Source of the DNA: Phycisphaerae bacterium
Lineage (GTDB): Bacteria; Planctomycetota; Phycisphaerae; Phycisphaerales; SM1A02
Length of the DNA: 44,257 nt
Direction of reading: 5' to 3'
Assembly (NCBI GenBank): GCA_002862305.1
Contig: PKCS01000096.1
Location: 1 to 44,257 of the forward strand
Position 1 is the first letter of the stretch; each line of letters opens with the position of its first letter. Positions 2,340 to 21,835 of the stretch are shown here, piece after piece. A program made the position numbers and the translations under genes. A model generated the notes under the pieces. It saw only the letters and a program-made list of their open reading frames with translations, did not search any database and was not told the DNA's origin.

Positions 2340-5108
2340 TCAGTCGTCGGGGCATTCTCCCCAGCGGCCGAGCAGGTACCCGATGTCCGCCCCGTCGATC
2401 TCGCCGTCCCCGGAGAGGTCGAAGTAGGTCACGATCGAGGGGTCGGACGCCTGCCAGTTGGCCAGCAGCAGGGTGAGGTCGACGCCGTTGATGAGCTCGT
2501 CGACGTTGTAGTCCCCGAAGCAGTTGCACGCATCGGGGAGGCCGTCGCCGTTGATGTCGACCTCGATGCCCTGGCTCACCTCGTAGACGTCGTTGTAGCC
2601 GTTCTCGTTGCAGTCCACGAGCGGCTGGAACCGTTCGATGTAGGCCGCGCCGGTCTGGACCCCGCCTTCGGTGTCCCCGACCGCGCCGATCGCGACCAGG
2701 TCCCCGCGAAGGTCGACGGAACTCCCGTAGCGCTTGTTCTCCTCCGGGTCGAACGCCGTGGCCAGCTCGGCCACGAACCAGGAGTCAAGTCGGTCGAGGT
2801 AGCTGATCAGGAAGACGAGTCCCGCCTCCTCGAACCCGTCGACCCGGGCAAGGGGGGCGCCCACCGCGATCCGGTCGCCGTCGATCGAGACCGAGCTGCC
2901 GAACGCGGCTTGCGACTCCGCGGCGAGGGTGGGGTTCAGGCGCTGCTCGAAGACCCACTGGATGCCGTCGTAGCGGTAGATGAAGACCGTGCCGCTGCCG
3001 GAGAAGGACTCCGGGCAGCCGATCAGCAGTCGATCGCCGTCCATCGACAGCGCGGTGCCGACCGAGCTCAGGATCGGCGTGCCCAGCAGTACCTGGGTCA
3101 GCTGCCAGTCCGCGGCGAATCCGGATCGCTCGTAGAGCAGGATGGCGCCGGCGCCACCGTTCGCGCGCGGGGCCCCGATCGCGAGGTGGTCGCCACTGAT
3201 CGCGATCGCCTCCCCGAAGCCAGCGTCCTCGCCGAGGGCGAAGGACTCGTTGTCCTCGCCGGACAGCACCCCGGCGATCTCCCAGGCGCCGGCGACGCGC
3301 CGGAACCACTCGACCTGGCCGACCTCCGAGGGGCTGGCGGAGCCCGCGAGGATCGTGGAGCCGTCGAAGGCCACCGTCCCGCCGAAGCGACGCTCCGCCC
3401 CGGGGGTGCTGGAGGTGAGTTCGGTCTCGAAGCACCAGCTCAGGCCGTCGTTGGCGAGCTCGAAGACGAAGATGCTCCCGGCCTGGGCCTGGGTCGAGCC
3501 ACCGCCGGACGGGGGGTTGTCGCGAAGCGGTGCGCCCGCCACCAGGGTCTGGTCGTCGCCCGCGAGGGAGAACCCGAACACGTCGTCCTCCCTGAGGTCG
3601 GGGATCGGCAGCTTGCCGGACTGCCGGTAGCAGGTGTCCCGGTCCCCGCCATAGACCGGGGCGCCCGAGCAGTTGGCGGTGGAGATCTCCTCGAAGGCGA
3701 AGACCGCACCGGAGTCGTCCGCGGCGTCGTCCGCGCTGAGGGCGGACACCACCACCTGCTCCCTGGCCAGCAGGACGTTCAGGCCGAACTGGTCGAAGTC
3801 GTCCTGCACGTCGGAAAGGAGCTTGAGGGTCTGGGGGAGCTGCGGCGCGCAGGCGAACTCCTCGACCACCGGCGCGAAGGTCTCCATCACCGAGACGTTG
3901 TCCGCCCCGCCGTCGGGCCCGGCCACGATCCCGATCGGCACGCCGTCGAACTCGATGTCGGGGTTCGAGAAGTAGGGAATCACCACCCCGGGGTTGAAGG
4001 CCATCACCGTCCGCCAGAGGCTGCCGCTGGTCCCGGTGAACCGGTAGGCGCGGGCTTGGGGCAGGAGGAAGTCGAGGTCGCTTCCGCAGCCGGGGTCGGA
4101 ATCCGCGTGACAGGCCCCGAGGTTGCGCCCGACCCCCTGCGCCAGCACGAAGCTGCCCAGGCAGAAGCGGGTGCAGAGGCTGTAGCGGCCGGGGTAGAAG
4201 TCCGCCTCCCCGCAGGCGCCCTCGTCGAACTCGACGACCAGGGTCGCGAGGTCGGCGCCGAGCTGGACCATCCGTCCGGGGACCTCGTCCATCAGCCCGT
4301 CGGCGGGGTTGCTGAAGCTGGCGAGGTGACCGACCTGGGTGGCGTCGTCGTAGTCGACCTGGTCGAACCCGACCACGCGTACCTGGACCGTCGAGTCGCT
4401 GTTGTCGAACGCGGTGTTGGCCTGCAGGACGGCGAGGTCGATCAGCGCCTCGAGCGACTGGTCCCCGCCCGCGCCGAGGGCCGCGAACGCGGTGTAGAAG
4501 ACCGCGATGTCGATGAACCGGGTCTGGCACGGGGTCGAACAGGTCCCGGTCCCCGCCACCGGGAGCGAGCGTGGCGTCGGGGTGGCGTCCGGCACCCGGG
4601 TTCGCGGGGCCGGGGCGGGCGTCGGTCGAACCCCCGCGCGTTCGGCTCGGCGCGGCGACGGGGTGGTCGCGAGGTCCTCCGTCCGGAGGGTGCCGTCGAG
4701 GTCGCGAAGCACCCGCCAGGCGCGGCCGTCGGCGGCGTGGAGGCTGCCGGCGAGGACGCCCTCCAGGGAGACGAACTGGGCGTGACCGAGGCGTCCACCC
4801 ACCTCGGTGAGGGTCCAGTGGACGCGTCGTTCGTCGGGACGGCTCAGGGCATCCAGCCTGAACTCAACCGGCTTCCCGACCGCGCGGGTCCCGGTGGACC
4901 GGGGCAGCCGGACGCGGAGGCGGTCCCCCACCTCCAGTGACTCGAGGATGATCGGATCCAGCCCGGGGGACCGCTCGGGGGCACCGTCCGAGGCGAGGTC
5001 CAGCACCATCGGCGCCCGGGGGGCGGTCCGGACCTCCTGGCCGAGGGCCCCTCCCACGGGAAGGAGGCTGGTCAGGATGGCCGAGAGGATGCTCGTGGAT
5101 CGCTTCAT
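2340..5108 (-). CDS. Secreted metzincin-like pseudoprotease with FG-GAP-like propeller and dockerin-like tail
   Basis: A 922-residue exported protein. I start it at 5108 (MKRSTSIL...), because a GGAG lies about nine bases upstream and a signal peptide (about 1-24, ending ...GGALGQ) follows at once. A propeptide-like region (about 30-140) leads into a domain beginning RFIDIAVFYT that resembles reprolysin-like M12B peptidases of planctomycetes. Where those have HExGHNxGxxH this protein reads QGVGRNLGACH (324-334): both first histidines and the catalytic Glu are gone. The last His (334) and the Met-turn TVMAF (M369) remain. Seven repeats of the form FGxxVxxxGDxLxxGAP...GxxxxY follow (about 430-850), probably a seven-bladed propeller. 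The C terminus carries a DCNENGYNDVYE stretch and two dockerin-like loops, the second canonical (DLSGDGEID). It probably acts outside the cytoplasm; function unknown. Confidence 0.88.
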   Translation of the reverse strand: MKRSTSILSAILTSLLPVGGALGQEVRTAPRAPMVLDLASDGAPERSPGLDPIILESLEVGDRLRVRLPRSTGTRAVGKPVEFRLDALSRPDERRVHWTLTEVGGRLGHAQFVSLEGVLAGSLHAADGRAWRVLRDLDGTLRTEDLATTPSPRRAERAGVRPTPAPAPRTRVPDATPTPRSLPVAGTGTCSTPCQTRFIDIAVFYTAFAALGAGGDQSLEALIDLAVLQANTAFDNSDSTVQVRVVGFDQVDYDDATQVGHLASFSNPADGLMDEVPGRMVQLGADLATLVVEFDEGACGEADFYPGRYSLCTRFCLGSFVLAQGVGRNLGACHADSDPGCGSDLDFLLPQARAYRFTGTSGSLWRTVMAFNPGVVIPYFSNPDIEFDGVPIGIVAGPDGGADNVSVMETFAPVVEEFACAPQLPQTLKLLSDVQDDFDQFGLNVLLAREQVVVSALSADDAADDSGAVFAFEEISTANCSGAPVYGGDRDTCYRQSGKLPIPDLREDDVFGFSLAGDDQTLVAGAPLRDNPPSGGGSTQAQAGSIFVFELANDGLSWCFETELTSSTPGAERRFGGTVAFDGSTILAGSASPSEVGQVEWFRRVAGAWEIAGVLSGEDNESFALGEDAGFGEAIAISGDHLAIGAPRANGGAGAILLYERSGFAADWQLTQVLLGTPILSSVGTALSMDGDRLLIGCPESFSGSGTVFIYRYDGIQWVFEQRLNPTLAAESQAAFGSSVSIDGDRIAVGAPLARVDGFEEAGLVFLISYLDRLDSWFVAELATAFDPEENKRYGSSVDLRGDLVAIGAVGDTEGGVQTGAAYIERFQPLVDCNENGYNDVYEVSQGIEVDINGDGLPDACNCFGDYNVDELINGVDLTLLLANWQASDPSIVTYFDLSGDGEIDGADIGYLLGRWGECPDD

Positions 5109-5160
5109 CACGTGGTCTCCAGGGCCCCGGGGCATGCCGCGGGGAGCCCGATGTCCTTCG

Positions 5161-5188
5161 ACTATGGCCGATCCGCAGGCGACTGCAA
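5161..5188 (-). promoter_or_regulatory. Candidate sigma-70-like promoter for the pseudoprotease gene
   Basis: On the minus strand TTGCAG (5188-5183) and CATAGT (5166-5161) are separated by 16 bp. This lies about 52 bp upstream of the start at 5108, in a non-coding stretch. CATAGT matches four of six consensus -10 bases; the -35 match is only TTG. This is a weak call. The rest of 5109-5331 is gene-free; it holds one short inverted repeat (CGGACC/GGTCCG near 5299-5313) with no T-run. Confidence 0.3.
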
Positions 5189-5331
5189 GCCTTTACTGGG
5201 GATCCGCCCGAATGCATGCCGGCACGTGGCCGGATTCCTGGCTGTCCCCCGGAAAGGGGTGGTTCCCGGCGCGCGGGCCGGGTCGGGTCGCACGCCCCCG
5301 GACCCGAGGTCCGAGAAGCGGGCTGCGGGCC

Positions 5332-8300
5332 TCACTCGACCTTGGAGAAGGCGAGCACGCGCGGCTGGTCGGTGGGCCCCTCGACGGTGCTGCGATCGAT
5401 CACCATCACGTACCGGCTCTCGTCGATGACCATCTCCTTGTCGGTGGCGTCCCAGTAGCCGGTGGCGGGGTCCTGCTTGAACGAGCGCACCGTGAAGTAG
5501 ACGGTGAACACGTCGCTGCGGGTGGTCAGCATGTTGGCGATGCCGGAGAAGAGCAGGTTCGCCTCCTCGGCGTCCCCCCCCACCATGTCCGGGGCGTAGA
5601 CGGTCCGGGAGAGGTCCGAATTCGGGTTCTTCAACCACGCGAGGCTGCGACGTTCGGTGTTGCGGTCGGTGGAGACCCGGGCGTCGACCGCCTGCTGCCC
5701 CGCGGAGGAGAAGGGATCGAACTCCTCGGTGCGGTCGCCCCGATACCCGAGTGCGTAGAGCTCGAAGGCCTCGTCGGCCTGGCGGGCGCCGTAGCCGATC
5801 CGCCAGTCCCCGCCGTTCTCGGTGCTGCGTCCGTACGGATCGAGGCCGAGGGCCCGGACCGAGGCGCTCTTGAGGCGGAAGTCCAGCGCGTAGTTGTGGT
5901 TGTTCTGGTCGGTCGTCGCCCCGCCGAGGTCGTTGAAGGGCACCGATTGGTCGCCGTTGAGCCCGAAGGCCTGGAGCTCGTCCGCCTGGGTGCGGTCCAT
6001 CGCGAGCAGCTCCCCGAGGGAGACGATGCCGGCGTCGTTGCGCATCCCGGGGTAGAAGCCCAGGACGTCGGCGGACAGCGTGGTGCCCGGTTCGGTCAGG
6101 CTGGGGTAGTCGGTGGCCCACGGGTTCGACGCGCCGCGGTAGCCGCGGTCCGCGTAGCTGGGCACCCAGTCGTTGAAGCCGCCGGAGGCGTCCTCGCGGT
6201 AGAGGAAGTCGCCGAGCCGGTAGCGCTCGATCGCCTCCGCGAAGCGCAGGTGCATCGAGTTCCCCAGCGCCTGCGGCACCGCGACCGCGCTCCGGTTGAC
6301 CTGGTTGAAGCTGAAGGGGTTGCGGGCGAAGTAGTCGTTGTAGATCAGACGGCTCATCTGCGGGAGGGCGCGCAGCACCTCCGGCGAGGCGGTGTTGACG
6401 TTGATCAGGCCGCGGGTGGGCTCGCCACTGAATCCGCGCGCGAGGTTCGAGTTGTCCTGCTCGGCCCGGATCAGCTCGTAGTCGCTGACCGAGCCGTCCC
6501 CGTCGTAGTCCGCATCGTTCGCCCGGACCCCGCGACCGTCGATGGTCACCCCGTCGAAGATCCCCGCACCCGCGGGGAGCAGGGGCTGGTAGGCGGGGAC
6601 CTGGAGGTTCGCCCCGAGGACCGCCCGCCACGGTCGGCCGGGATCGTACTGGCCGGGGGTCGAGGCGCCCCCGGGGCCGGGGCGGGAGACGCGGCCGGCC
6701 GGTCGGCCGGAGGAGAAGTCCAGCCGGTTGGCGAAGACCCCGCGACCCGCGGGGTAGGCATCGGGGGGCAGCGGCAGCGCCCCGGGCAGGGTGAGCCCCC
6801 ACCACTCCGGGGTGTTGTACAGCTGGCCGGTGGGGTTCACGCTGGTGTCGGTGATCCGCGGGCGCTGGAACTCGATGACCTCGGTCATCAGTTCCGCGAA
6901 GGTCCGCCTGGTCTCCAGCAGCCCGAAGGGACCGGGCGGGTTGGCGTAGTAGTCGGTGATGTCGATCACCGGCCCCCACAGGAAGACGTGGTTGAGCTCC
7001 CCGACCTGCTCGAAGTCGTCGTCCTTCAGCAGCATCTGCAGCGGCTCGTTCCAGAGGTCCTCGCGGAAGCCGGCGTGGAACTCCGCCTGGTCCTCCGCCA
7101 CCAGGTCCATGGGGATGTAGGCGTAGTTGCTCTCGTTGATCGGGGTCCCGAGCGGGTCCTCGGTGCGCCGGCTGGTCGACTGCGGGTCGTTCTCGTCGAC
7201 CAGCAGCGGGAACCCGTTGTCGTAGGCCGCGCCGATCCCGCCGAACTGCGGGTTGCCGGAGTCGACCACCGTCCAGGTGGGGAAGTTGAACGGCTTGCCG
7301 CGGATGATCCAGGGGGCGGGGATCGCGGTCGACTGCTCCCAGGCGTTCCGGCCGGGCGTGTAGTCGTAGGTGAACTGCTCGACCACGTCGGTGGGGCGGG
7401 TCAGGGGCGCGGTGTGGGCGAACGGACGGATCCACTGGTCGTTGCCCGGGAGGCCCGGCTGGTACTGGCCCGAGCCGTCCGCGAAGGAGCTGCGGGCGAA
7501 GGTGTCCCCGCGGAGGTCCTGGGTCTGGTCGTAGCCGGAGTCCTCGGAGCCGGTCACCGTCAGGTCCCCGGACTCGTCGAGCCCCAGGATCGGGTCGGTG
7601 GCGACGCTGTAGACGTACCTCGGGGAGATCTCGTCGAGGTCGTAGATCCCGCTGCCGTCCACGTCCCAGCCCCAGAAGCGGGAGATGCTGGCCCAGGTCA
7701 CGTAGTACTGGTCGTCGTCGAGGCGGATCCCGGACCAGTTGAGCCCCCCGGAGGGGAGCTGGCCGTTGGTGGGCTTGAACTCGTTGCCGGGCTCCGGCGG
7801 GCGCCCCTCCTCGAAGAAGCGGGCGAGTTCGCTGGAGAACTCGACCTCCCGGGTGGTGTCCGCGGTCTCCACCCGCTGGTGCTGGAGCCGGTCGACCACC
7901 AGGTTCACCCGGGGGTCGGGGGCGGTGGTGTCCGAGGCGTTGGTGAAGGCCGTCTCGCCCACGTAGGTCCGGATCAGCTGGATGAGCGGCTGGTGGTCGT
8001 CGGCGCCCTGTCCGTTGTAGCCGAGCAGTCGTTCGCGGGCCCCCTCCCCGAGTCCCCCGGGACTGATCATCCGCGAGGCGTCGAGCACCAGCGACTGGTG
8101 CTGGTCGAGGGACATGTTCTCCTCGTAGCCGAAGAGGTCGCCCTCCTGCAGGTCGAGGTAGTCGAGGCAGGCCTGCTTGAAGACCTCGTACTCCACCTCG
8201 AAGCCGGACTGCTGCGGGTCGCCCTCCGTGCCGGCGAACCCGGTGTAGCCGAGGTTCGAGGGGGGGACCAGGGCGAAGACCACCGCGGTCCGCGGGGCGT

Positions 8301-11300
8301 CGGGCTCGGTGGGGCCGAGGTAGAGGTCGTCGTGGTAGTAGCTCGACCCGAAGGGATTCACCTGCTGGGTGCCGGTGGTGGTCGCGAGCGCATGGGGGCA
8401 GTTGAGCGCCTTGAGGGCGATCTGCTTGTCCCCGATCTTCAGGGCGTAGTCGTAGAGGGAGATCGGCTCGTCGAAGGGGTTGCCGAGCTGCACCGCGATC
8501 AGCACCGCGGGCTTGGAGCGGTCGTCGACGAAGCTCTCGTCGGTCGCGCGGTTGGTGTCGTTGCCGGGGCTGGCGTTGGTGAAGTAGGTGTCGAAGCCCT
8601 CGGGGTGCACGACCTCCGGGATGGTGCTGCCGCTCGGCCAGCTGCCGACGGGCCCGGCGGCGACCTGGGTGCGGGGGTAGACCAGCGCGTAGAACGCCTG
8701 CATGATGAACGGCTGCTTCTCGAAGCCGAGGAAGCCGTCCCGGCGGGGGTCGTCCTCGAAGTTGATGACCCCGTCGGAGTTCAGGTCCCCGGGCGCCAGG
8801 GTGAGGTCCAGGCCGTAGCGGTCCTCGGTCGGGACCCGCCTCGCGTCGTAGGGATGCAGGGGCGGGTCGAGGTAGAGCACGTCCGCGTTGCGGGCCACCA
8901 GGTCGTCGAATTCATAGGGCAGCGGGCCGTCGCGCCAGGCCTCGATGTTCGCCGCGAGGCTCGCGGCCATCTTGTTGTTCTTGAAGTACGCGATGGTCAG
9001 GGGGCTCAGGTCGTCGTTGAGCGGCCAGCCGGGATCGGTGAAGTAGCTCTGGTTGACGTACCGGTCGGTGAGCTCGTCGTAGCACTGCACCGAGGTGGCG
9101 ACCTCGATCATGTCCTGCAGGTCGCTCAGCCAGCGGCGGCGGTTCTGGAGCCACAGCTCCCCCCCCACCGAGCCCGCGGGCTGGTTGACCACCTCGAAGC
9201 TCTCCCGGAGGTCGATCTTCCGCTGGAGGCGCTGGTAGGCGTCGTAGTCGTTGCGGTCCCCCTGCAGGTAGGTGGCCCCGTCGCGGTCGTAGTCGAGGTC
9301 CCGCTCGAAGAGGCGGCTCTTCCAGAGCCACAGCGGTCGGTACTCGTTGCGGGCGCCGCTGAACAGGGTCATGCGATGGCGGACGTCGCGGACCTGCTGC
9401 TCGTTGATGTTCTTGCCGGACCGGGGGATCGTCCCCCCGAAGTAGGTGCGCACCGGACCGGTCTCGGGGCGCTCGATGTCCCCGCGGAGGATCGAGAAGC
9501 TCGTCCCGCTGCCGGTGACGTGGTCCCCCAGCGCCCCCTCCAGCCGGCTGAAGCGGGTGGGATGGTTGAGCCCCGCGAAGGAGCGCAGCTCGAGCTCGTC
9601 CTCGAACCCGAAGGACTTGGCGGTGAAGGGCAGCAGCTGCGGGGTCCCGGAGGACTCGTCGACCCACTTGCCGGTGAACTCGTTCTGGACCAGCGTGTTC
9701 CAGAGGGTCCGTTCCCGCACCCCGGCGTCGAGGGTGTCCCCGCGCAGCGAGCGGTACTGGCCGTAGAACGGCTGCGGTTCCTGGGCGGTGCCCCCGGCGA
9801 GCACGTCGAGGCCTCGTTCGTTGAGGAACGAGCGGGAGGCGCCCGGGGCGTCGGGGGTCGCGAACCAGCGGTCGCGGTCGAGCACCTGCTGGACCTGGTG
9901 GTTGCCGGCCGCGGGGTAGAAGGTCGAGTCCAGCACCTGGTTCTTGGGGTCGCCCAGCAGCCCGATCCAGGTGTCGTTCTCGTCGAGGTCGGAGTCCGCC
10001 CCGCCGACGTTGAGGCGGCTGACCAGCGCGGCGTCCGCGGGGGTCGAGCCGCTGGTCGTCCAGCGGTCGAAGACGGTGGCGACGTTGGCGTTCAGCATGC
10101 CGCCGTTGTCCACCACCGAGACCCCCACCACCTGCTTGACCCCGGGGGTCGGGCTGTGGGGGGAGACGAACCAGAAGCTGTCGGTGAAGCCGTCGCCGTC
10201 GGCGTCCGCGAAGGTCCGCTCCACCACGTTGCGGTCGGTGCCGAAGACGAATCGATCGGACTCCGGACCCAGCAGGTTGAGGTCGAGGTAGTTGGGGAGG
10301 ACCTCGTTGCCCGGGGCCGCCCCGGAGTCGGTGGTGATCCGTCGGGACCCGTTGAAGTGGTTGACGGGACTGCTGAACCAGCGATCGCGGCGCTCGAGGA
10401 AGGTACCGGCGTCGAACTGGTAGCTGCCGTCGGGGGCGAGGAGGGGCTCGGGGATCACGTTGGGGTACCACTGCTCGTAGGGGGTCTGGATCGCGACGGG
10501 GAACGCCGCGTCGTGGTACGGGCGGTCGCCGTCGGCGAGGGTCCAGGCGTCGGCGGTGGTGTCCAGGGTGTAGCCGGAGGACGGTCCCGTGGAATAGCTC
10601 GGGACCGAGCCGTTGGGCTGGCTCTCGATGTAGTTGCCGGGGTTGAAGCTCGCGACGTTGGAGATGTCGTAGCAGACCCGCCAGCCGTTCTGCGCGGTGG
10701 GGATCCAGGAGAGGTGGGTCCAGTGGGTGTAGCGCTCGCTGAACGGACTGAAGTTCACGAAGTCGCCACCGTCGTAGTAGGCGCCCAGCCGGCGGGGCTC
10801 GCTGTCCCGGAGCCAGCGGCTGTCCCCGAAGCCCGGGTTGCCCCGGGGGTTGCCGGTGCCCAGCGGGTAGCTCACGTTGGTGAAGGGCGTGGCACCGCTG
10901 CGCAGGCGGTAGCCACCGAGGATGTTGCGGGCCCCCGGGCCGTGCGGCACGTAGAGCTCGCCCTCGGTGTCGTCCGGCCAGTTGGTCCAGGCCCGGGTCT
11001 CGTAGGGCGCGAAGTTGAAGTCGAACAGCGGGACGAAGTTGCTGATCCCCGGCGGGGAGTTGCCCTGGGGTATGAAGTCGGGGCTGGAGTCCCGGATGCC
11101 GTCGGGCCCCGAGGTCACGTTGCCCTGGTCGTCGACCCCGTAGAAGTCGCCGAGGTCCGCGCCGAAGCGCTCGATGTTGATCTGGTTCTCGAGGTAGGTG
11201 TCCCCCGAACCGTTGCCGAGGAACAGCTGCCACGGTTCGGTGACCGCCGCCCGCGGGACCCCGGAGAGGGTCCGCTCCGCGAACAGCTCCGCGGAGGACA

Positions 11301-11664
11301 CCTCGCCGTTGCTGTTGGCGGCCTCGTCGAAGATGTCCACCCGCCACGCGAGGGGATCGGGTGCACCGTTCGTGAAGTAGCCGTAGGCCTCCGCCTGGGC
11401 GCCGGGGTCGACCGAGGCGGGGAAGAGGGAACGGGAGATCTCGGTGGCCAGCTGGTCGGCGTAGATCGACGCGCTCTCCTCCCGCTGGAAGGCGTGGCCC
11501 TGCACGGTGGCGAGCTTGCGCCCGTCCTGGGTCCGGGTGATGAACGCGGTGGCGATGATGACCAGCAGGACCAGGATCGCGGTGACCAGGACCAGGGTGT
11601 TGCCGCGGCGGGTGGTTGGGGATTCGATCGGCATGGGCGAGGCGTGCTCCGGGGTGCGGGTCAT
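5332..11664 (-). CDS. Giant GspK-like minor pseudopilin (2110 aa)
   Basis: The last gene of the E-F-G-G'-H-I-J-K operon. The N terminus is a short basic leader RRGN followed by one hydrophobic helix (about 21-42). It lacks the Glu at +5 that other pseudopilins have, as GspK proteins do. Near the C terminus comes INVNTASPEVLRALP (from residue 1754), the helix-hairpin-helix signature of the GspK SAM-like domain. The final segment (SDVFTVYFTVRS..., ending AFSKVE) also resembles GspK ends. Typical GspK is 300-350 residues, so roughly 1400-1700 residues are extra. These hold D-x-D-G loops such as DLNSDGVIN and WDVDGSGIYD that could bind calcium. I chose ATG 11664: it sits one base after the upstream stop and has AGGA eight bases before it; M11 (11634) is the alternative. 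Expected role: tip or priming complex of the pseudopilus in the periplasm. The inserted region is unrecognised. Confidence 0.82.
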   Translation of the reverse strand: MTRTPEHASPMPIESPTTRRGNTLVLVTAILVLLVIIATAFITRTQDGRKLATVQGHAFQREESASIYADQLATEISRSLFPASVDPGAQAEAYGYFTNGAPDPLAWRVDIFDEAANSNGEVSSAELFAERTLSGVPRAAVTEPWQLFLGNGSGDTYLENQINIERFGADLGDFYGVDDQGNVTSGPDGIRDSSPDFIPQGNSPPGISNFVPLFDFNFAPYETRAWTNWPDDTEGELYVPHGPGARNILGGYRLRSGATPFTNVSYPLGTGNPRGNPGFGDSRWLRDSEPRRLGAYYDGGDFVNFSPFSERYTHWTHLSWIPTAQNGWRVCYDISNVASFNPGNYIESQPNGSVPSYSTGPSSGYTLDTTADAWTLADGDRPYHDAAFPVAIQTPYEQWYPNVIPEPLLAPDGSYQFDAGTFLERRDRWFSSPVNHFNGSRRITTDSGAAPGNEVLPNYLDLNLLGPESDRFVFGTDRNVVERTFADADGDGFTDSFWFVSPHSPTPGVKQVVGVSVVDNGGMLNANVATVFDRWTTSGSTPADAALVSRLNVGGADSDLDENDTWIGLLGDPKNQVLDSTFYPAAGNHQVQQVLDRDRWFATPDAPGASRSFLNERGLDVLAGGTAQEPQPFYGQYRSLRGDTLDAGVRERTLWNTLVQNEFTGKWVDESSGTPQLLPFTAKSFGFEDELELRSFAGLNHPTRFSRLEGALGDHVTGSGTSFSILRGDIERPETGPVRTYFGGTIPRSGKNINEQQVRDVRHRMTLFSGARNEYRPLWLWKSRLFERDLDYDRDGATYLQGDRNDYDAYQRLQRKIDLRESFEVVNQPAGSVGGELWLQNRRRWLSDLQDMIEVATSVQCYDELTDRYVNQSYFTDPGWPLNDDLSPLTIAYFKNNKMAASLAANIEAWRDGPLPYEFDDLVARNADVLYLDPPLHPYDARRVPTEDRYGLDLTLAPGDLNSDGVINFEDDPRRDGFLGFEKQPFIMQAFYALVYPRTQVAAGPVGSWPSGSTIPEVVHPEGFDTYFTNASPGNDTNRATDESFVDDRSKPAVLIAVQLGNPFDEPISLYDYALKIGDKQIALKALNCPHALATTTGTQQVNPFGSSYYHDDLYLGPTEPDAPRTAVVFALVPPSNLGYTGFAGTEGDPQQSGFEVEYEVFKQACLDYLDLQEGDLFGYEENMSLDQHQSLVLDASRMISPGGLGEGARERLLGYNGQGADDHQPLIQLIRTYVGETAFTNASDTTAPDPRVNLVVDRLQHQRVETADTTREVEFSSELARFFEEGRPPEPGNEFKPTNGQLPSGGLNWSGIRLDDDQYYVTWASISRFWGWDVDGSGIYDLDEISPRYVYSVATDPILGLDESGDLTVTGSEDSGYDQTQDLRGDTFARSSFADGSGQYQPGLPGNDQWIRPFAHTAPLTRPTDVVEQFTYDYTPGRNAWEQSTAIPAPWIIRGKPFNFPTWTVVDSGNPQFGGIGAAYDNGFPLLVDENDPQSTSRRTEDPLGTPINESNYAYIPMDLVAEDQAEFHAGFREDLWNEPLQMLLKDDDFEQVGELNHVFLWGPVIDITDYYANPPGPFGLLETRRTFAELMTEVIEFQRPRITDTSVNPTGQLYNTPEWWGLTLPGALPLPPDAYPAGRGVFANRLDFSSGRPAGRVSRPGPGGASTPGQYDPGRPWRAVLGANLQVPAYQPLLPAGAGIFDGVTIDGRGVRANDADYDGDGSVSDYELIRAEQDNSNLARGFSGEPTRGLINVNTASPEVLRALPQMSRLIYNDYFARNPFSFNQVNRSAVAVPQALGNSMHLRFAEAIERYRLGDFLYREDASGGFNDWVPSYADRGYRGASNPWATDYPSLTEPGTTLSADVLGFYPGMRNDAGIVSLGELLAMDRTQADELQAFGLNGDQSVPFNDLGGATTDQNNHNYALDFRLKSASVRALGLDPYGRSTENGGDWRIGYGARQADEAFELYALGYRGDRTEEFDPFSSAGQQAVDARVSTDRNTERRSLAWLKNPNSDLSRTVYAPDMVGGDAEEANLLFSGIANMLTTRSDVFTVYFTVRSFKQDPATGYWDATDKEMVIDESRYVMVIDRSTVEGPTDQPRVLAFSKVE

Positions 11665-11665
11665 C

Positions 11666-13651
11666 TCAGGAATCCTGGCGGGGAACGGGGATCACGAACT
11701 GCACGTCCCGGGCCCCACTGAGCCGGTCGTTGGAGTCATGCAGCCGCATCGACACCCGGACCGCGCTCGGCCAGGGGGTGTAGGTGGTGAAGACGCGGCC
11801 GTCCCCACCGGGGGTGAGCTGGAATTCCTCGTCTCCGAAGACGGGCAGACCATCCTGATACGTAAAGGGCTCCCCGTTGAGTTTGCGCAAAATGCCACCT
11901 TTTTGATTGAATCCGAAGACCGCCCCGTAGCGGCGGATCCGGGCACCCCCGTCCGCGCCGTTGCCGCCGTCGGTGTCGACCGATTCGATCAGGGTCAGCG
12001 GGGACTGGCCGACGGAGCCCACCAGCGGGTCGGCGAAGGTGTCGTCACCCATCCCGAAGAGGTTCCCGGAACCCTGGCTCGAGAGGTTGAACTCGTTGGT
12101 TCCGCCACCCGAGAGCAGCTCCGGTCCCACCGGGGGACCGATGCGGACGCAGTTGTTCGGATCCACCAGGGCCACCACGTCCTGGTCGTCCCAGGCCACC
12201 GACTGCCCCGGGAACGGGGCGTCGGCGAGGGTCCCCAGCGAGCCGTCGCGCCCCGCGAAGGCGATCGCCGGCGCGGTCTCGTGCTCGCGGCTGGAGAGCC
12301 CGAACCACGGGGTGGTGCTGGAGCGGAGGGTGCCGAACTCGTTCCAGAGCTCCCCCTCGCTGCCGGACGCGGAATAGGCGGCCCGGCCGTCGGAGATCCA
12401 GGACCCGTCGATGACCACCCCCGGGAACCCGCCGAGGAAGTGGCTGTTCCAGCCCGCGGGCAGGCCGAAGCTGGGCTGCCAGTTGTCGTTGGGGAGGATC
12501 CGGGTGCCGAGGTCGCGACCCACCCCGTCCTCCCAGGTCCACTCCACGCGGAAGTCCGAGACGAAGGGCGCGAGCACCACGTCGGTGAGCATCAGGTCCT
12601 GGCGGTTCATCCCCGGGGCGTCGAGTTCGGCGCGGGGGTAGCCGTAGTACATCGCCTCGAGGATCGATTCCTTGTCGACCCGTTCGGAGGCCGCGCTGGT
12701 GCCGTCGTCGGACCCCCCGAAGACCTGGCTGTTCCAGGGGTAGCAGACGGTCGCGCGAAGCTGGGTCTCGTCGGTGGCCGCCACGTCCCGCCGGGAGTTC
12801 ACGAGTTCCGGCGCGAAGCGGAGCGAGCCGTCGGCGGTGTCCACGAACAGGTTGCAGACCGAGTTCCGGAGCGGGGTGCCGGAGTCGTCGACCTCGTAGC
12901 CCATGTAGTACTCGCAGTCGGCGCCGATCGGGTTCTCCGAGACGTTCCGGGCCCCGTCGTCGTCCGCGAGCAGCACCTCCTGGCGCGCGAGCACCCAGTC
13001 GTCGACGGTGGCGGGGAAGAGCGGGACGCTGGTGGTCCCGACCACGTTGCCGTCGAGGTCCGTGAACCGGACCTCGTTCTTCGGCAGGTAGCTCCAGGGG
13101 AAGACCTCGTCGCCGGCCCCGGACCGGTCCAGGTCGAGGGGCTCGTCGCGGGCCTCCGCGGGCAGGGCGGTGACCTGCAGCCCCGGGCTGTAGAAGACGC
13201 TCGAGAAGTAGCTCTGGGCGGGCGCCAGCACGTCCACCCCGACCTGCTCGCCCCCCGCGGCGTAGCTCTGGGTGAACTGCCGGGAGTTGGTCGCGCCGTT
13301 GGTGAAGAAGAGCAGCTGGTCCGCGCGGATCTCGGCGTCGGCGGACCGGGTGGGATCGAGCAGGCGGCCGGTCGAGGCCAGGTTGACGTCGTTGCGGACC
13401 CCCACGCACTGGATCGCGAAGAAGCCGTTGGCGGACACCCGCTGGAGGTCCCGGCGCATCACCCGCTCGATCGCGATCGCCTGCTGGAGCAGCTCGCTGT
13501 TGGACTCCCCCACCGAGGCCACCTTCTGCGCGGTCCCGAAGATGGTGCTGGTCGCGATGACCACCACCAGCAGCACCGAGATCGCGACCAGCATCTCGGT
13601 GAGGGTGAACGCGCGTCGAACGGCGGAAGACAGTCGTCGGGTCGGCTTCAT
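11666..13651 (-). CDS. GspJ-like pseudopilin (prepilin-type N-terminal domain, 661 aa)
   Basis: The prepilin leader is MKPTRRLSSAVRRA followed by FTLTEMLVAIS, with the conserved Glu at +5 and a hydrophobic helix of about 20 residues. The residue before the cleavage site is Ala rather than Gly. Its position between the I-like and K-like genes and the TLTEML leader suggest GspJ, though it is about three times the usual GspJ length of around 200. The open frame continues upstream to 14770, but that part is out of frame with the real upstream gene. The start at 13651 overlaps the preceding stop (TGATG). Codons in about 11848-11925 are unusually AT-rich for the gene. The body beyond the helix is otherwise unrecognised. 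Confidence 0.85.
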   Translation of the reverse strand: MKPTRRLSSAVRRAFTLTEMLVAISVLLVVVIATSTIFGTAQKVASVGESNSELLQQAIAIERVMRRDLQRVSANGFFAIQCVGVRNDVNLASTGRLLDPTRSADAEIRADQLLFFTNGATNSRQFTQSYAAGGEQVGVDVLAPAQSYFSSVFYSPGLQVTALPAEARDEPLDLDRSGAGDEVFPWSYLPKNEVRFTDLDGNVVGTTSVPLFPATVDDWVLARQEVLLADDDGARNVSENPIGADCEYYMGYEVDDSGTPLRNSVCNLFVDTADGSLRFAPELVNSRRDVAATDETQLRATVCYPWNSQVFGGSDDGTSAASERVDKESILEAMYYGYPRAELDAPGMNRQDLMLTDVVLAPFVSDFRVEWTWEDGVGRDLGTRILPNDNWQPSFGLPAGWNSHFLGGFPGVVIDGSWISDGRAAYSASGSEGELWNEFGTLRSSTTPWFGLSSREHETAPAIAFAGRDGSLGTLADAPFPGQSVAWDDQDVVALVDPNNCVRIGPPVGPELLSGGGTNEFNLSSQGSGNLFGMGDDTFADPLVGSVGQSPLTLIESVDTDGGNGADGGARIRRYGAVFGFNQKGGILRKLNGEPFTYQDGLPVFGDEEFQLTPGGDGRVFTTYTPWPSAVRVSMRLHDSNDRLSGARDVQFVIPVPRQDS

Positions 13652-15123
13652 CAGAGATCCTTCACTGCCACGAACACCGGGATCAGGGTGATCCCGTCGC
13701 GGGTCTCGGGGGGGATGAACCAGATGGACTTGACGGCGCCCGCGCCGCTGGCGGTGGTGAACTCGCCGTTCTCGTCGACGACGTTGCCGTTGGAGGCCTG
13801 GCGCGGGACGTAGGGGACGCGCTGGGAGAGCCGGACCGGTCCCTCGCCGGCGGTGCGCCGGCCGGCCAGCACGCGGTGCACGGACCCGTTCTGGTCCAGC
13901 AGCCACTGGCCGGGCACCTGCCACCCGTCCCGGTAGGGGTCGAGCAGCAGCCGGGGGTTCTCCCCGGGCTGGGGGACGGTGCCCTGGATCACCATGTCGT
14001 CGGTGGGGTCGCCGGGGTCGATGCCCTCCGGGTACCACCTGGGGATGGTGATGGCGGTGCCGTTGGCGTTGGTGAAGTTCTGGGGGAAGTCCACGCGGGC
14101 GGGCAGCGGGGACTCGCTGGGCCAGTCGCTGGTCGTGTCGCCGGAGCACGCGTTCACGGTGTAGGACCGGGGCCCCGCACCCCCGAACACCGGTCGGTAC
14201 ACGAAGATCGCGACCTGGATCCGACCCTGGTAGCGACGGAACATGCAGTCCCAGTAGTACTCGGGGAACTCGGTCCCGACCGGCCAGGAACGCTCGCCCT
14301 GGGTGATGGTGACCAGGGGTTCCGCGCGACCCTCGCGTGCGGGATCGAGCCGGTAGTCGTAGGCGCCCGAGGAACCGGAGTTCACGAGCGATTCGTAGGG
14401 ATCGTAGGGATCGAGCACCGCGTACTTCGCGCGGTTGAAGGGGATCCCCGCCAGCACCGAGGACTCCCCCCCGCCGGAGTTCTGGTCGAAGGGGGGGATC
14501 GAGGGATCGGTCGAGCGGATCACGTCCCCGGGGTAGCGGCCGAAGAAGTTGATCGGGTACTTGCCGAAGTCGGAGGTGTAGAACAGGTCGCCGTCCTCGC
14601 CGGACTGCTCGGGAAGCGCCCCGAAGCCCGCGAGGTCGCGGGTGTGCCGGAGGCTGAAGACGTCGATCGCCCCATCGAGCGGCCCCGGCTGGGTGATCGC
14701 CGCGGGGGGCACGCCCGGGGCGATGGGGGCGCCGCCCGCGCTGGGCAGCAGGAAGGACGGGCGCATCCACCCCCAGTCGCCGGGGATGGTCCCCTGCGCG
14801 TCGGAGAGGACCTCGGGATCGCGGGCCCCGGAGTTCGCGCTGACCTGGTAGCGGTCGCCGGCCTCCAGCCCGAACTGCTCGAAGCTGCCGAAGTCCTCCT
14901 GGTCGAGCTTGGAGCGAAGCACCCCCACCGCCTGCTCGGCGACGATCGGGCCGTAGATCGCGTCCTTGGTCTGGACCTGCTGCGCGATGCCCGCGGGGAA
15001 GATCGCCGCGACCGAGATGATGCCGATCGCGAGGATGAAGACCGCGAGCAGCAGCTCCACCAGCGAGAAGCCCCGACGGGCGCGGGCTGCCGGGACGACG
15101 GGGATCCGGGGGTCACGGGTCAT
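13651..15123 (-). CDS. GspI/PilV-like pseudopilin (490 aa)
   Basis: The leader MTRDPRIPVVPAARARRG is followed by FSLVELLLAVFILAIG, a textbook type IV prepilin site with Gly at -1 and Glu at +5. The VELLLAVFILAIGI helix and the following AxxFPAGIAQQ resemble the GspI/PilV group. It is more than three times the normal GspI length of about 120-130. The long globular part has no domain I recognise. Its ATG overlaps the stop of the H-like gene by four bases (ATGA), and its stop overlaps the J-like start by one base. It would be cleaved by a prepilin peptidase (not in this window) and enter the pseudopilus tip. Confidence 0.85.
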   Translation of the reverse strand: MTRDPRIPVVPAARARRGFSLVELLLAVFILAIGIISVAAIFPAGIAQQVQTKDAIYGPIVAEQAVGVLRSKLDQEDFGSFEQFGLEAGDRYQVSANSGARDPEVLSDAQGTIPGDWGWMRPSFLLPSAGGAPIAPGVPPAAITQPGPLDGAIDVFSLRHTRDLAGFGALPEQSGEDGDLFYTSDFGKYPINFFGRYPGDVIRSTDPSIPPFDQNSGGGESSVLAGIPFNRAKYAVLDPYDPYESLVNSGSSGAYDYRLDPAREGRAEPLVTITQGERSWPVGTEFPEYYWDCMFRRYQGRIQVAIFVYRPVFGGAGPRSYTVNACSGDTTSDWPSESPLPARVDFPQNFTNANGTAITIPRWYPEGIDPGDPTDDMVIQGTVPQPGENPRLLLDPYRDGWQVPGQWLLDQNGSVHRVLAGRRTAGEGPVRLSQRVPYVPRQASNGNVVDENGEFTTASGAGAVKSIWFIPPETRDGITLIPVFVAVKDL

Positions 15124-16109
15124 GGTCCACCCACCTTCGCGAGGCCGGTGTACCGGTTGAAGTGGATGCGGTCCGCGTTCTCGTCGAGCCAGGTCCCGAG
15201 GATCCGGTCCCGGAACTCGATGAAGTCCCCGGCGCCGAGGCTGGCCTGCGCGCCGACGAAGGCGGTGTAGTCGATGTCCTGCTTGGCCTTCACCTCGTCG
15301 TAGACCGCGAGGAACTGGCAGACGTTGATGAACGACTCCGCGTTGGTCTCCCCCTGCTGGAAGAACGGGGTGTTGCTCGACCCGGAGCCGCTGGAGCGGT
15401 TGAGCAGGTAGTTGCCGTTGTTGTCCCGGAGGTCGTCGTAGTCGACCCAGTTGTACAGGCGGTTGGAGGCCGAGGTCTGGGCCTCGGGGTTCCGGGTGAT
15501 CACCGTGCCGTCGGCCCCGAAGAGCACGCCGAAGGTCGACCCGAACTCCAGGCTCCGGTAGTAGTCGTAGCGGCCGTCCCCGTCGTCGTCGATCGGGGTC
15601 CAGGGGCCGGGGCTCATGAAGTTCCAGGTGCCGGTGGGGTCGTCGACCACCCCGATGTCCTGGGCGGGCCCGGCGACCATGATCCCCTCGGGCAGGTAGC
15701 GCGGGGCCACCGCGGCGGAGGGGATGAACCGGCAGACGTCGGTGGTGGAGGCCGAGGCGTTCATCCGGATGCCGTCGTTGTCGCCCTTCACGATCTCGCC
15801 GGTGAACCCCGCGACCACCATCTCGACCTGGGCCGGCTGGCTGGGGTCGTCGAGGTCCTTCACGATGCGGAAGGTGAGCAGCGTGGGGTTGTTGGTTCGG
15901 ATCGCCTCGCTGCGCGCGGTGGAGAGCGCGCCGAGCACCCGGTTGACGCCGGTCGAGAGCTTCACGTCGCGGGTCACCCGCTGGATCGAGATCACGGTGA
16001 CCACCGCCAGCATGCTGATGATGCCGATCACCACCAGCAGCTCGAGCAGGGTGAAGGCGCGGGGGCGCGGGGCCATGGGACCCGGGGTGATGCGTGGCGA
16101 CCGGCTCAT
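15120..16109 (-). CDS. GspH-like pseudopilin (329 aa)
   Basis: The leader MSRSPRITPGPMAPRPRA precedes FTLLELLVVIGIISMLAVV; Ala is at -1 and Glu at +5. The segment LGALSTARSEAIRTNNPTLL is the RSEAI motif typical of GspH/FimT proteins just after the helix. The reading frame stays open upstream to 16814, but the start is fixed at 16109 by the leader and by the ATGA overlap with the preceding gene. It is about twice the normal GspH length. It is the fourth of the six coupled pseudopilin genes counted from K. Confidence 0.86.
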   Translation of the reverse strand: MSRSPRITPGPMAPRPRAFTLLELLVVIGIISMLAVVTVISIQRVTRDVKLSTGVNRVLGALSTARSEAIRTNNPTLLTFRIVKDLDDPSQPAQVEMVVAGFTGEIVKGDNDGIRMNASASTTDVCRFIPSAAVAPRYLPEGIMVAGPAQDIGVVDDPTGTWNFMSPGPWTPIDDDGDGRYDYYRSLEFGSTFGVLFGADGTVITRNPEAQTSASNRLYNWVDYDDLRDNNGNYLLNRSSGSGSSNTPFFQQGETNAESFINVCQFLAVYDEVKAKQDIDYTAFVGAQASLGAGDFIEFRDRILGTWLDENADRIHFNRYTGLAKVGGP

Positions 16110-17038
16110 GAACCCGACCTCGCGGAAAGCGGCTCGTAGGAGAAGATGTTGTCCTGGGCCTCGTTGAACTCGTTCTCGGCGGCGCTGGAGGTCGTGGGGT
16201 CCGCGTAGCGGTTGCCGATGCGGCCGTCCGGGCCGGAGGAGACCAGCAGCGGGCGGCGGTTGCGACAGATCCCGTAGAGGTGCTCGTAGGGCGTGCGGAT
16301 CGTCCCGTCGGGATCCCGGACGATCGGGAACTCGTAGTCGGAGTAGCCGGGGATCTGGATGCTGCCCTCCGCGTCGTCGGTGTCGTAGTAGCGGCGACCG
16401 GGGAAGATCATCCGCACCTGTCGGCCCCAGGGATCGATGAACTCCGTCATGTTGAAGGTGTCCTCGATCGGGATGCCCCCCCCCACCCCGGTCACGCAGA
16501 CCACCGCGCGGACCAGCTTTGGATCGCACTTGCCGAGGATCGCGGCGCAGGCGGGATTCCTGCCCATCACCGCGAGGGCCGCGGAGAGCCACTGCTGCTC
16601 GTGGTAGCGACCGAGCAGGTCGTCGTCCCAGGGGAAGCAGTCGCCGTTGGTCTCCCAGCCGTAGCCGCCCGCGTCGAGCCCGTTCATCAGGGCGTTGGGG
16701 GAGCCGTTGGCCAGGGTGGAGCGCATCGGCCGGAACGGCACGTCGACGTGGATGTCGGCGTTGGCGTCGCCGTAGCGGATCCCCGCGTGGGGGGCCTGGG
16801 TGGTGCGGTGCCACCCCTCGAAGATCATGGGCCGCCCGGCCTGCTGCTCGAACTCCAGCAGCGCGGTGTCGATGATCTGCATCGAGGAGCGGACCTGGCG
16901 TTCCTCGGACTGCGCGATGACCACCGATCCGACCCCGAGGACGAGGCCCATCAGGACCAGGATGATCCCGATCACGATCACCAGCTCCAGCAGGGTGAAG
17001 GCGCGACGCAGCGGGCGGGGGCGTGGGACCTGGTTCAT
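16106..17038 (-). CDS. GspG-like pseudopilin, second copy (310 aa)
   Basis: The leader MNQVPRPRPLRRA is followed by FTLLELVIVIGIILVLMGL (Ala at -1, Glu at +5). IDPWGRQVRM and, near the end, VSSGPDGRIGNRYADP match the DPWGNP and S-x-GxDGxxG elements of major pseudopilin GspG. A large middle segment, including a repeated pattern around dates or grid-like DANAD residues, makes it about twice the usual GspG length. Start at 17038 overlaps the upstream stop by four bases. It is a second G-type subunit next to the one at 17035-18186; which of them forms the pseudopilus shaft cannot be told from sequence. Confidence 0.85.
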   Translation of the reverse strand: MNQVPRPRPLRRAFTLLELVIVIGIILVLMGLVLGVGSVVIAQSEERQVRSSMQIIDTALLEFEQQAGRPMIFEGWHRTTQAPHAGIRYGDANADIHVDVPFRPMRSTLANGSPNALMNGLDAGGYGWETNGDCFPWDDDLLGRYHEQQWLSAALAVMGRNPACAAILGKCDPKLVRAVVCVTGVGGGIPIEDTFNMTEFIDPWGRQVRMIFPGRRYYDTDDAEGSIQIPGYSDYEFPIVRDPDGTIRTPYEHLYGICRNRRPLLVSSGPDGRIGNRYADPTTSSAAENEFNEAQDNIFSYEPLSARSGS

Positions 17039-18186
17039 GGACCGACCTCCACGAGGTTGTCGAGGTTGTAGCCCTCCACGTCGATGCGGCGCTCGTCGTC
17101 GTTGCGGCCGTCCGCCCCGGGGGTGAAGAGCGCGTACTCCGCGGCGAGCAGGGCCCGGGAGGTGGAGGTGTCGCCGTTGGCGTCGGCCCAGGCGCTCTCG
17201 CTGGTGCTGCCCACCGCGAAGGACTGGGGCCGGAGCGCGACCACGTCCGCGAGGGTGTAGCGGTCGTCGAGCACGCCGGGAGCGCGCAGGTCGCGCGGGG
17301 GCCGGGCGTAGAAGCGGATCGGGTTGCCCCAGTAGTCGAGGAAGACCTTGGGGGGGACTCCCTGCCCGTAGTCGCCGTCCCCGGGGAGCAGGACCCGCTC
17401 CCACTCCTGCCGGACGCCGTTGCCGCCCTCGTCGGAGATGGAGAGCCCGCGCACCTCGCCCAGGACCGTCGGGTCGCTCACGTCGAGGTAGGGACCGTAG
17501 ACCCGCCCCGGCATGGTGGTGAGGTTCCCCCCGGTGAAGGAGGCGATCCCCAGGTCGTCGGGGTTGCGGTCGGGGAAGGCCACGCCGTTGCGGTTGGGGT
17601 CCACCACCCCCTCCGCGAACCGCGGGTTCAGGGTGGCGTTCCAGTACCCGTCGAGGCCGGGGGAACGGAAGCCGAGCGAGGGATACTCCTTGTAGCCCTG
17701 CTGGTAGCCGGGGGAGCCCGGATCGTTGTTGGCCAGCAGCGGCGGGATCGGCTGGGAGTTGGTGGCGACGAACCCGTAGCCGTCGAAGCGACGGTCCCCG
17801 TAGCCCAGGAGGTACTCGGGCAGGCTGGTCAGGGAGAAGTAGGCCTGGACCTCCCGGTAGTCGTCGTTCTGCAGCGTCCCCGCGCCGGACGCCCCGAAGG
17901 GCGGGGCCAGCAGGTCGCGGCCGTGGCCGATCGAGTCCGCGGGGGTGGCACCGGGACCCAGCACCGGTGGCAGGTAGCCCTGGTCGGTCTTGAACCGGGC
18001 GATCGCGGTCTTGATCGAGTTCATCAGCTGCCCGGTCTTCGCGCGCTGGGACGAGCGGGTGGCCGAGGACAGCGCGATGACCAGGATGCTGGCGAGGATC
18101 ACGATCACCCCCACCGTCACCAGCATCTCGGTGATGGTGAAGCCGGGCCGGCGGGCGGGTCTGGATGTGGGCGACGATGGACGCAT
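17035..18186 (-). CDS. GspG-like pseudopilin, first copy (383 aa)
   Basis: The leader MRPSSPTSRPARRPG is followed by FTITEMLVTVGVIVILASI, with Gly at -1 and Glu at +5. Near the C terminus DYWGNPIRFY and LFTPGADGRNDDERRID correspond to the DPWGNPY and GADGxxGG...D elements of GspG. A GAAGGA ribosome-binding site lies eight bases before the ATG at 18186. The gene follows gspF with a 41-bp gap and begins the run of overlapping pseudopilin genes. At 383 residues it is well over twice the common GspG length; the extra sequence sits between the N-terminal helix and the GspG-like end. Confidence 0.85.
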   Translation of the reverse strand: MRPSSPTSRPARRPGFTITEMLVTVGVIVILASILVIALSSATRSSQRAKTGQLMNSIKTAIARFKTDQGYLPPVLGPGATPADSIGHGRDLLAPPFGASGAGTLQNDDYREVQAYFSLTSLPEYLLGYGDRRFDGYGFVATNSQPIPPLLANNDPGSPGYQQGYKEYPSLGFRSPGLDGYWNATLNPRFAEGVVDPNRNGVAFPDRNPDDLGIASFTGGNLTTMPGRVYGPYLDVSDPTVLGEVRGLSISDEGGNGVRQEWERVLLPGDGDYGQGVPPKVFLDYWGNPIRFYARPPRDLRAPGVLDDRYTLADVVALRPQSFAVGSTSESAWADANGDTSTSRALLAAEYALFTPGADGRNDDERRIDVEGYNLDNLVEVGP

Positions 18187-21313: not shown

Positions 21314-21835
21314 CGTGACCTGCCTGACCCGGTGCGGGTGGAAAGGGATTCGGGAACTGACGGGTCGCGCCCCGCGCCGGGGAGGACGAACCGGACTCGC
21401 CGGCGGGACGGCCGACCACTGCTTCATGATCAGCGGTCACTCAGGGCTTGGCAAGTCCCAGAACCGGGGTTTGGATTGCGACATCTGGACTTTTGAACGC
21501 TCTACGGGTCGCGAACGTCATCTGTACGGAACCGACGCGCCATTGTCCGCACCCAATCTCGAAGTTTGCCCGCAATTGACCCCCGCCAGGAGGGCGTGAA
21601 GCGGTTCGAGCTCATTGTGACAGCTGGATTGTGTTACGACTTCCAGGCACTGAACGGGCTGGAATCGATTCGTAGCCCGGGCCAGATGCCGTGGTTGGCG
21701 GGATATTCAACCGTCCTGAGGGATCCAGAGCGGAGATCTTGTCGCAATGGAGTCATTCAGGGCCACATCACGCCACGCCCCGTCAGGGGCCCGGAGCCAC
21801 GTTGCTCTGGAATGACTGGGCGGGGCGCTGGTCGA
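21314..21835. other. 522-bp gene-free region between pilT and gspE
   Basis: No convincing gene here on either strand. It is visibly less GC-rich than its surroundings between about 21440 and 21760. It must hold the promoter and leader of the gspE operon (minus strand), but I could not pick a clear -35/-10 pair. Just after the pilT stop it carries the stem structure listed separately (21751-21817). Confidence 0.6.
21751..21817 (-). terminator. Candidate structured terminator downstream of pilT
   Basis: Starting 19 bases after the pilT stop on the minus strand, an 8-bp outer inverted repeat (AGTCATTC 21751-21758 with GAATGACT 21810-21817) encloses a GC hairpin, GCCCC-loop-GGGGC (21777-21790). 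There is no T-run, so if it terminates it would be by pausing or Rho. It could also be a structured RNA leader element upstream of gspE. Confidence 0.35.

Follow-up and report, generated by a model that had tools for sequence, protein, structure and literature searches.

A conserved giant GspK-like protein with very large inserts in Planctomycetota

Positions 1 to 44,257 of contig PKCS01000096.1 from a Phycisphaerae bacterium (GenBank assembly GCA_002862305.1), a 44,257-nucleotide stretch called the window below, encode on the minus strand (5332–11664) a protein of 2110 residues, giant K. It belongs to a real, conserved branch of the GspK kind that is distinct and contains very large inserts. 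As judged from its frame and gene neighbourhood, K may well be the minor pilin at the tip of a type IV pilus-like filament that can retract, where the inserts would form a large external head. GspK proteins are usually about 300–350 amino acids (aa) long. The ordinary GspKs of the same order, counted from near the N-terminal helix, have 431–510 aa versus the 2110 aa of K, which is four to six times the usual size for a pilus-tip-type protein. The parts of the gene are as follows.

5332–11664, minus strand: giant GspK-type minor (pseudo)pilin gene, 2110 aa, 233 kDa, calculated isoelectric point (pI) 4.5
11485–11664, minus strand: leader ending RRG^N and hydrophobic N-terminal helix, residues 1–60; Leu at mature position +5 (RRG^NTLVL)
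10180–10206, minus strand: calcium-loop motif DADGDGFTD, residues 487–495; no change at the D, G and T positions in any of the 10 aligned rows
10075–10131, minus strand: first helix-hairpin-helix (HhH) strand/motif, degenerate, VVGVSVVDNGGMLNANVAT, residues 512–530; weak profile match, E 0.021
7879–8508, minus strand: probable lamin-tail-domain-like beta-sandwich with an insertion, about residues 1053–1262, end uncertain; PF00932 and hhalign
6472–6516, minus strand: second calcium-loop motif DADYDGDGSVSDYEL, residues 1717–1731, before the second HhH; recognised from the sequence
6358–6414, minus strand: second HhH motif RGLINVNTASPEVLRALPQ, residues 1751–1769; hhalign match to ordinary GspK, E 1.6e-8
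5335–5571, minus strand: C-terminal strands, GspK-like and Verru_Chthon_A-like, residues 2032–2110; hhalign match, E 4.8e-6

The giant K gene and its GspK-like frame

The 2110-residue protein described by a first-pass annotation, which was made from the sequence alone, is borne out as an intact single open reading frame (ORF) of 2110 codons from ATG to stop with no internal stop. As compared with the 71%-identical relative L031, the gene differs at rates of 0.22, 0.18 and 0.42 at codon positions 1, 2 and 3, the peak at position 3 being present in all ten blocks of about 212 codons, and its guanine plus cytosine (GC) content at the three positions is 0.65, 0.47 and 0.97. A plus-strand ORF (4807–11721, 2304 aa) was also considered as the true gene and rejected, as the best antisense frame contains 6–17 stops in six relatives; it is an unconserved shadow of the high GC content.

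Position +5 of the predicted mature protein is occupied by Leu, Phe, Met or Val, and never by Glu, in all 32 homologues that could be parsed (4 of 36 were unparsed), in agreement with the leader lacking a +5 Glu that the first-pass annotation had seen. Absence of Glu at this position is a trait of GspK. The first HhH is degenerate in K, while its motif V-N-V/I-N-T/S is clearer in five of ten order-level giants. In the second HhH, INVNTASPEVLRALP starts at residue 1754, and TTRSDVFTV begins farther on, at residue 2047.

The frame was compared by hhalign with a profile of 15 ordinary GspKs (431–510 aa from near the helix) from other genomes of the order, which were picked by motif and by eye from 20 fetched regions (L096, L098, L099, L100 and L109 excluded); not every PF03934 hit is a GspK, and several of the hits lie in frames of 120–180 aa. 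Segmented K matched this profile at the N-terminal helix (E 2.1e-5), the second HhH and the C-terminal strands (E values as listed above), collinearly and in the GspK order, and whole K matched at the same three places (E 2.4e-4, 4.5e-7 and 4.3e-5, respectively). Two insert segments gave no match to the profile (E 0.16 and 0.47), while the reversed-GspK control reached E 0.4 for the C-terminal part and 0.095 for whole K, and the best of 20 column-shuffled profiles reached E 0.1. The earlier proposal that the HhH near residue 1754 and the SDVFTV end point to GspK is therefore upheld, as far as a GspK-like frame goes, at E 1.6e-8 and 4.8e-6, with all controls at 0.095 or above. On these profile comparisons, the frame of K is GspK-like at both ends around long inserts.

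In a tree of the C-terminal block (121 columns kept, some end branches long, o_L101 unparsed and omitted), 22 giant-type rows, chosen by profile similarity in a way that favours their grouping, stand apart from 14 ordinary GspKs with a support of 100/99. This is read as a distinct branch in the sequences, not as a dated origin.

Recurrence and genomic context

A protein search found matches of K in 56 of 61 genomes, the own genome included. Loci of the same family with an intact gene contain single frames of 1492–2341 aa (2379 aa in the named record L035), the exception being L055 with 1056 aa, and several other protein-search matches are contig-end fragments; frames at the order level have 1068–1650 aa. 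In the phylum, the C-terminal profile matched 118 of 392 sampled genomes, a count made with this profile alone, where few frames were read and some belong to the profile itself. Among the 116 genomes listed, 74 have a best frame of 900 aa or more, 53 of 1500 or more and 6 of 2000 or more, the maximum being 2909; these lengths run from stop to stop and are thus slightly above protein lengths. Listed frames below about 750 aa include ordinary GspK. Genomes of the same class outside the order, ten among the matches listed, contain frames of 950–1333 aa.

The longest frame among the matches listed (L177, 2909 aa) is of the K type and comes from another family of the phylum. L177 and L179 contain a pilin-type helix near the start, the motif G-x-x-N-x-N-T and a T-x-R-S strand end, and the last two features are also present in L178, of which the helix was unparsed; L178 and L179 adjoin frames matching pilins weakly (16–34 bits). 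L180, a candidate distant giant from a genome outside the rows listed, is cut before its end, so that the K end is not in view. The oversized design recurs across the phylum, and the same architecture, for which the first-pass annotation had recommended a search in other Phycisphaerae, is present in many relatives as a long-insert GspK-like frame.

The recurrence bears on the idea that K is an ordinary GspK lengthened by gene fusion or by an assembly error. The length alone speaks for it, while the single open frames of the intact same-family loci and of the order-level relatives, and the separation from ordinary GspK in the tree, speak against it; it is so improbable as to be negligible. Frame error, fusion and single-assembly artefact, which the first-pass annotation had named as what could undo its reading, were rejected on the single frames in relatives, the codon-position differences and the separate branch.

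K is the last gene of a run which reads, in order, PilB-type ATPase, PilT, PilB/GspE-type ATPase, PilC/GspF, five pilins and K. The upstream genes are listed from K outwards.

11666–13651, minus strand: GspJ-position minor pilin, 661 aa, prepilin motif RRA^FTLTEM
13651–15123, minus strand: GspI/PilV-position minor pilin, 490 aa; N_methyl 26.5 bits, over cut-off
15120–16109, minus strand: GspH-position pilin, 329 aa; prepilin motif and position
16106–17038, minus strand: second pilin, 310 aa; prepilin motif
17035–18186, minus strand: first pilin of the cluster, 383 aa; prepilin motif
18228–19529, minus strand: PilC/GspF inner-membrane platform protein, 433 aa; PF00482, E 1.1e-64
19595–21427, minus strand: PilB/GspE assembly ATPase with MshEN domain; PF00437, E 3.6e-131
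21836–22957, minus strand: PilT-type retraction ATPase, 373 aa; PF00437, E 1.9e-52, no MshEN row
22994–24757, minus strand: second PilB-type ATPase with MshEN domain; PF00437, E 1.8e-124

The pilin genes overlap by 1–4 bases and the start of K lies one base past the end of J, while the gaps farther upstream of the pilins are 36–408 bases. The I-position pilin matches PilV (E 1.5e-5) and Verru_Chthon B (E 0.071) in the library scan, both below cut-off, and library family scans of the last 618 residues of the J-position pilin gave no match. Both pilins are also long, with 331–480 aa (I) and 424–682 aa (J) from the prepilin site in relatives, and I- and J-type pilin matches lie directly upstream of K in 34 of 41 loci. 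PilT, a name read from the PF00437 match without MshEN and from the sequence, was found in the same run in 23 of the 41 loci, the window included, most of the other loci being cut before that point. With PilT and two MshEN-domain PilB/GspE ATPases, the cluster resembles a type II secretion operon less than it does a type IV pilus. The first-pass annotation, which had put K at the end of a type II-like operon, was thus right as to the operon and the last place of K, and is revised as to the type of system.

In three of the five pilins, Ala replaces Gly before the prepilin cleavage site (RRAFTLLE, PRAFTLLE and RRAFTLTE; 15120–17038 and 11666–13651, minus strand). At locus L042, the GspF match is spread over three overlapping frames, perhaps owing to an assembly frameshift. 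On the other side of K, 196 bases downstream, 2340–5135 (minus strand) encodes a secreted metalloprotease-like protein of 931 aa, in which a metzincin region like that of Mep72 (E 9.5e-8, below cut-off) is accompanied by FG-GAP repeats and, at the C terminus, a dockerin-type repeat. Similar genes occur in 7 of the 41 K loci, the window included, and this neighbour may be a partner or a substrate.

Parts of secretion or pilus systems also occur elsewhere in the own genome, where the profile search found four secretin matches over cut-off and PilO over cut-off, together with PilM-like (26 versus 27 bits) and PilN (20.8 versus 22.8 bits) matches; this PilO-like protein is also over the T2SSM_b cut-off. 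In Pfam, L171 contains PilM-like, PilO and another PilB-type gene, while the PilM/PilN-like and GspE-like genes of L172 and L174 were recognised by eye only, and a Pfam scan of two L172 proteins gave no match. Ordinary GspK genes, which show at least two helix types, lie in separate places in genomes of the order (L091, L092, L097, L101, L104, L107 and others); the own genome yielded none. Genomes of the order thus seem to contain several type IV filament systems side by side.

These parts can also be arranged as a type II secretion system, where K would be the tip of a periplasmic pseudopilus and serve as a receptor or gate selecting bulky secreted enzymes, such as the metalloprotease-like neighbour. 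The H-I-J-K-like gene order, the secretins, the T2SSM_b match and the adjacent gene with its FG-GAP and dockerin-like repeats are all consistent with this arrangement. However, PilT shares the run in 23 of the 41 loci, the protease-like neighbour was detected in a minority of loci, and neither GspC nor GspL was recognised among the translated cluster genes (the genome was not searched for either). Ordinary GspK genes are, in addition, present separately in other genomes of the order, though not found in the own genome. A type II pseudopilus tip is regarded as unlikely.

Composition of the inserts

The inserts comprise about 1,600 residues beyond the ordinary GspKs of the order, and conserved blocks run along the whole length of K in a family alignment of 27 sequences, from which duplicates, partials and order-level rows had been removed. 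A loop of the DADGDGFTD type is present in nine of ten order-level giants (L066 being without it), and D/N-rich loops between the HhH units also occur in ordinary GspKs of the order. The suggestion of the first-pass annotation that D-x-D-G loops point to calcium is strengthened by the conservation of the loop motifs in relatives, from which calcium binding would be expected; EF-hand models matched one of 11 relatives (best E 0.0069). Of the 45 pairs of segments compared for internal repeats, the best gave E 0.0019, and the pair linking the two calcium-loop/HhH units gave E 0.0041.

Residues from about 1053 to 1262 are probably a lamin-tail-like beta-sandwich, as predicted from sequence similarity, and AVLIAVQLGNPFDEPISLYDYAL resembles the opening part of a lamin tail domain. 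In a search of 41 genomes, PF00932 matched three order-level giants, in G040, G043 and G051 (E 1.7e-4, 2.6e-4 and 6.9e-4), all at 21.8–23.4 bits and below the cut-off of 34.3, and gave no match in the own genome; the motif in these three falls on the giant-K profile positions of residues 1053–1067. Among 17 windows of the family alignment compared by hhalign, the lamin-tail profile fitted best at this place (E 0.012, or 0.010 for a segment centred on it), the windows not overlapping the best one giving E 0.078 or worse; as 17 windows were compared, this value alone is weak. The earlier description of most of the protein as unexplained holds for much of the middle, but probably not for this segment.

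When all members of both half alignments were scanned with Pfam, the sole matches were weak ones to T2SSK (4 of 11), EF-hand (1 of 11) and FG-GAP (1 of 10). By sequence, the Protein Data Bank (PDB) gave at best E 0.26 for the single protein, nothing at E 1 for the C-terminal profile, and at best E 0.75, over the calcium loop, for the N-terminal profile.

A large module within a pilin frame is also known from the pilin ComZ of Thermus, whose sheet contains an inserted beta-solenoid that is thought to bind DNA (PMC8179133), and in the same manner K might sit at the tip of a pilus for DNA uptake (competence). The design is the same and a retraction ATPase is present, and lamin tail domains are mentioned in papers on bacterial DNases. 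The calculated pI of 4.5 is, however, unfavourable for DNA binding unless local patches differ, and no competence gene was recognised among the translated cluster genes, the genome not having been searched for any; this role is considered very unlikely.

Proposed function and relation to known systems

The reading preferred, with moderate confidence, is that K is a minor pilin which sits at the tip of a retractable, type IV pilus-like filament and bears a large external head. After the predicted prepilin cleavage, its GspK frame (N-terminal helix without Glu5, two HhH units, of which the first is degenerate, and C-terminal strands) would pack against the minor pilins I and J, themselves enlarged (490 and 661 aa), and the three would prime and cap the filament. 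GspK has been proposed at the pseudopilus tip together with I and J (PMC8179133), and by analogy with this position K would cap the filament with its inserts facing outward. The approximately 1,600 inserted residues, with calcium loops and the lamin-tail-like beta-sandwich, would form the head. The PilB-type ATPases would extend the filament, the head would bind a surface or a macromolecule, and PilT, of which the occurrence in the run (23 of 41 loci) argues for retraction, would withdraw it.

PilY1 is a known type IV pilus tip adhesin. Its model is over cut-off in only one of the 61 genomes (G014), with no match in the own genome or in 14 control genomes, and G014 lacks a K match in the protein search, so K could fill the role of PilY1.

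Several points weigh against this reading. The match of the N-terminal helix is generic, since J pilins as a family match this helix as well (E 1.3e-4); for the C-terminal part, the comparison with the I and J pilin families reached only E 0.032 and 0.79. The cluster genes include no recognised secretin or PilMNO, and the link of those found elsewhere to the cluster is assumed, while the PilY1 search had no positive control, the 14 control genomes being empty as well. L062 has no detected PilT although its stretch has room, and the 1056-aa K of L055 lacks the N-terminal third and has no cluster genes detected in its 20-kb stretch. Six further loci of the 41 have no I or J neighbour in view, of which five (L040, L065, L068, L072 and L073) are short or cut by the end of the contig or stretch and one (L069) lacks only the recognised I pilin. 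G403, of the same family, gave no match in the C-terminal-profile search of the phylum. AlphaFold models of the two halves (10 and 11 sequences) were unusable, with mean predicted local distance difference test (pLDDT) values of 30.8 and 34.9. The Foldseek comparison recommended by the first-pass annotation was run on the second half only and, from this poor model, gave nothing at E 0.001 or better; its top row, the lamin-B1 tail (E 0.72), is a hint at most. The large tip structure foreseen by that annotation is thus still an expectation, as the structure predictions were unusable.

The curated GspK models also remain below cut-off for K, with 15.1 versus 24.2 bits for PF03934 (T2SSK) and 12.9 versus 130 for NF037980. 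The first-pass annotation would have been weakened by ends that match no GspK profile, and the outcome is divided, the library models falling short whereas the profile of the order's own GspKs matches clearly. K shares with GspK (NF037980/PF03934) the N-terminal helix without Glu5, an HhH unit and C-terminal strands in the same order, a calcium-type loop before the second HhH, and the last place in an H-I-J-K-like run. It differs from GspK in its 2110 aa versus a 307-position model, in the unmet cut-offs, in a cluster with PilT and in its own branch.

A second named family with a local match, which the first-pass annotation did not name and which corrects it, is Verru_Chthon cassette protein A (TIGR02600). 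The Verru_Chthon name derives from Verrucomicrobia. This family is likewise a long protein (1296-position model), of which a C-terminal segment matches residues 2025–2091 of K at E 8.1e-6, and it shows that a long protein of a related kind has been modelled before. However, K scores 24 bits versus a cut-off of 332.3, which is passed in none of the 61 genomes. As the cut-offs of both the curated GspK models and Verru_Chthon_A are unmet, K is called a variant of the GspK kind and not GspK. A search of the open-access literature found no paper naming giant K proteins in planctomycetes and none on Verru_Chthon.

In design, K resembles the modular pilins PilB and PilC of Streptococcus sanguinis and ComZ of Thermus, where a pilin frame displays a large extra module, which in ComZ lies within the fold (PMC8179133). 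Unlike K, which has no N_methyl (PF07963) match at E up to 5 in the Pfam scan, the surveyed modular pilins were required to contain the N-terminal domain IPR012902, and the most extreme multi-domain case of that survey has 860 residues (PMC8179133). The tip minor pilins KilLMN of the Myxococcus Kil/Tad system are a further parallel, as a minor-pilin trio with extra domains on a swappable filament tip (PMC12075869). They belong to Tad-type pili, however (PMC12075869), and the likeness drawn here is one of design.

Known GspKs are small, yet in Planctomycetota K forms a branch of its own, in which frames reach 2909 residues. Giant K takes the concept of custom-tipped filaments far beyond the modular pilins surveyed so far, and the entry filter of that survey misses such proteins. 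Planctomycete pili-like fibres bind labelled dextran, their molecular component being unnamed in the available part of that source (PMC5394234). That giant K proteins are the ligand-catching heads of these fibres, which emerge from crateriform pits, is a speculative and very unlikely reading; if true, the phylum would feed by drawing in type IV filaments whose K tips have taken up large molecules, and its diet would be set by the size and content of the inserts. Giant K is a concrete candidate for surface contact or large-molecule capture in planctomycetes, and the finding suggests that their retractable filaments end in very large heads, with which the cells touch or catch what lies outside them.

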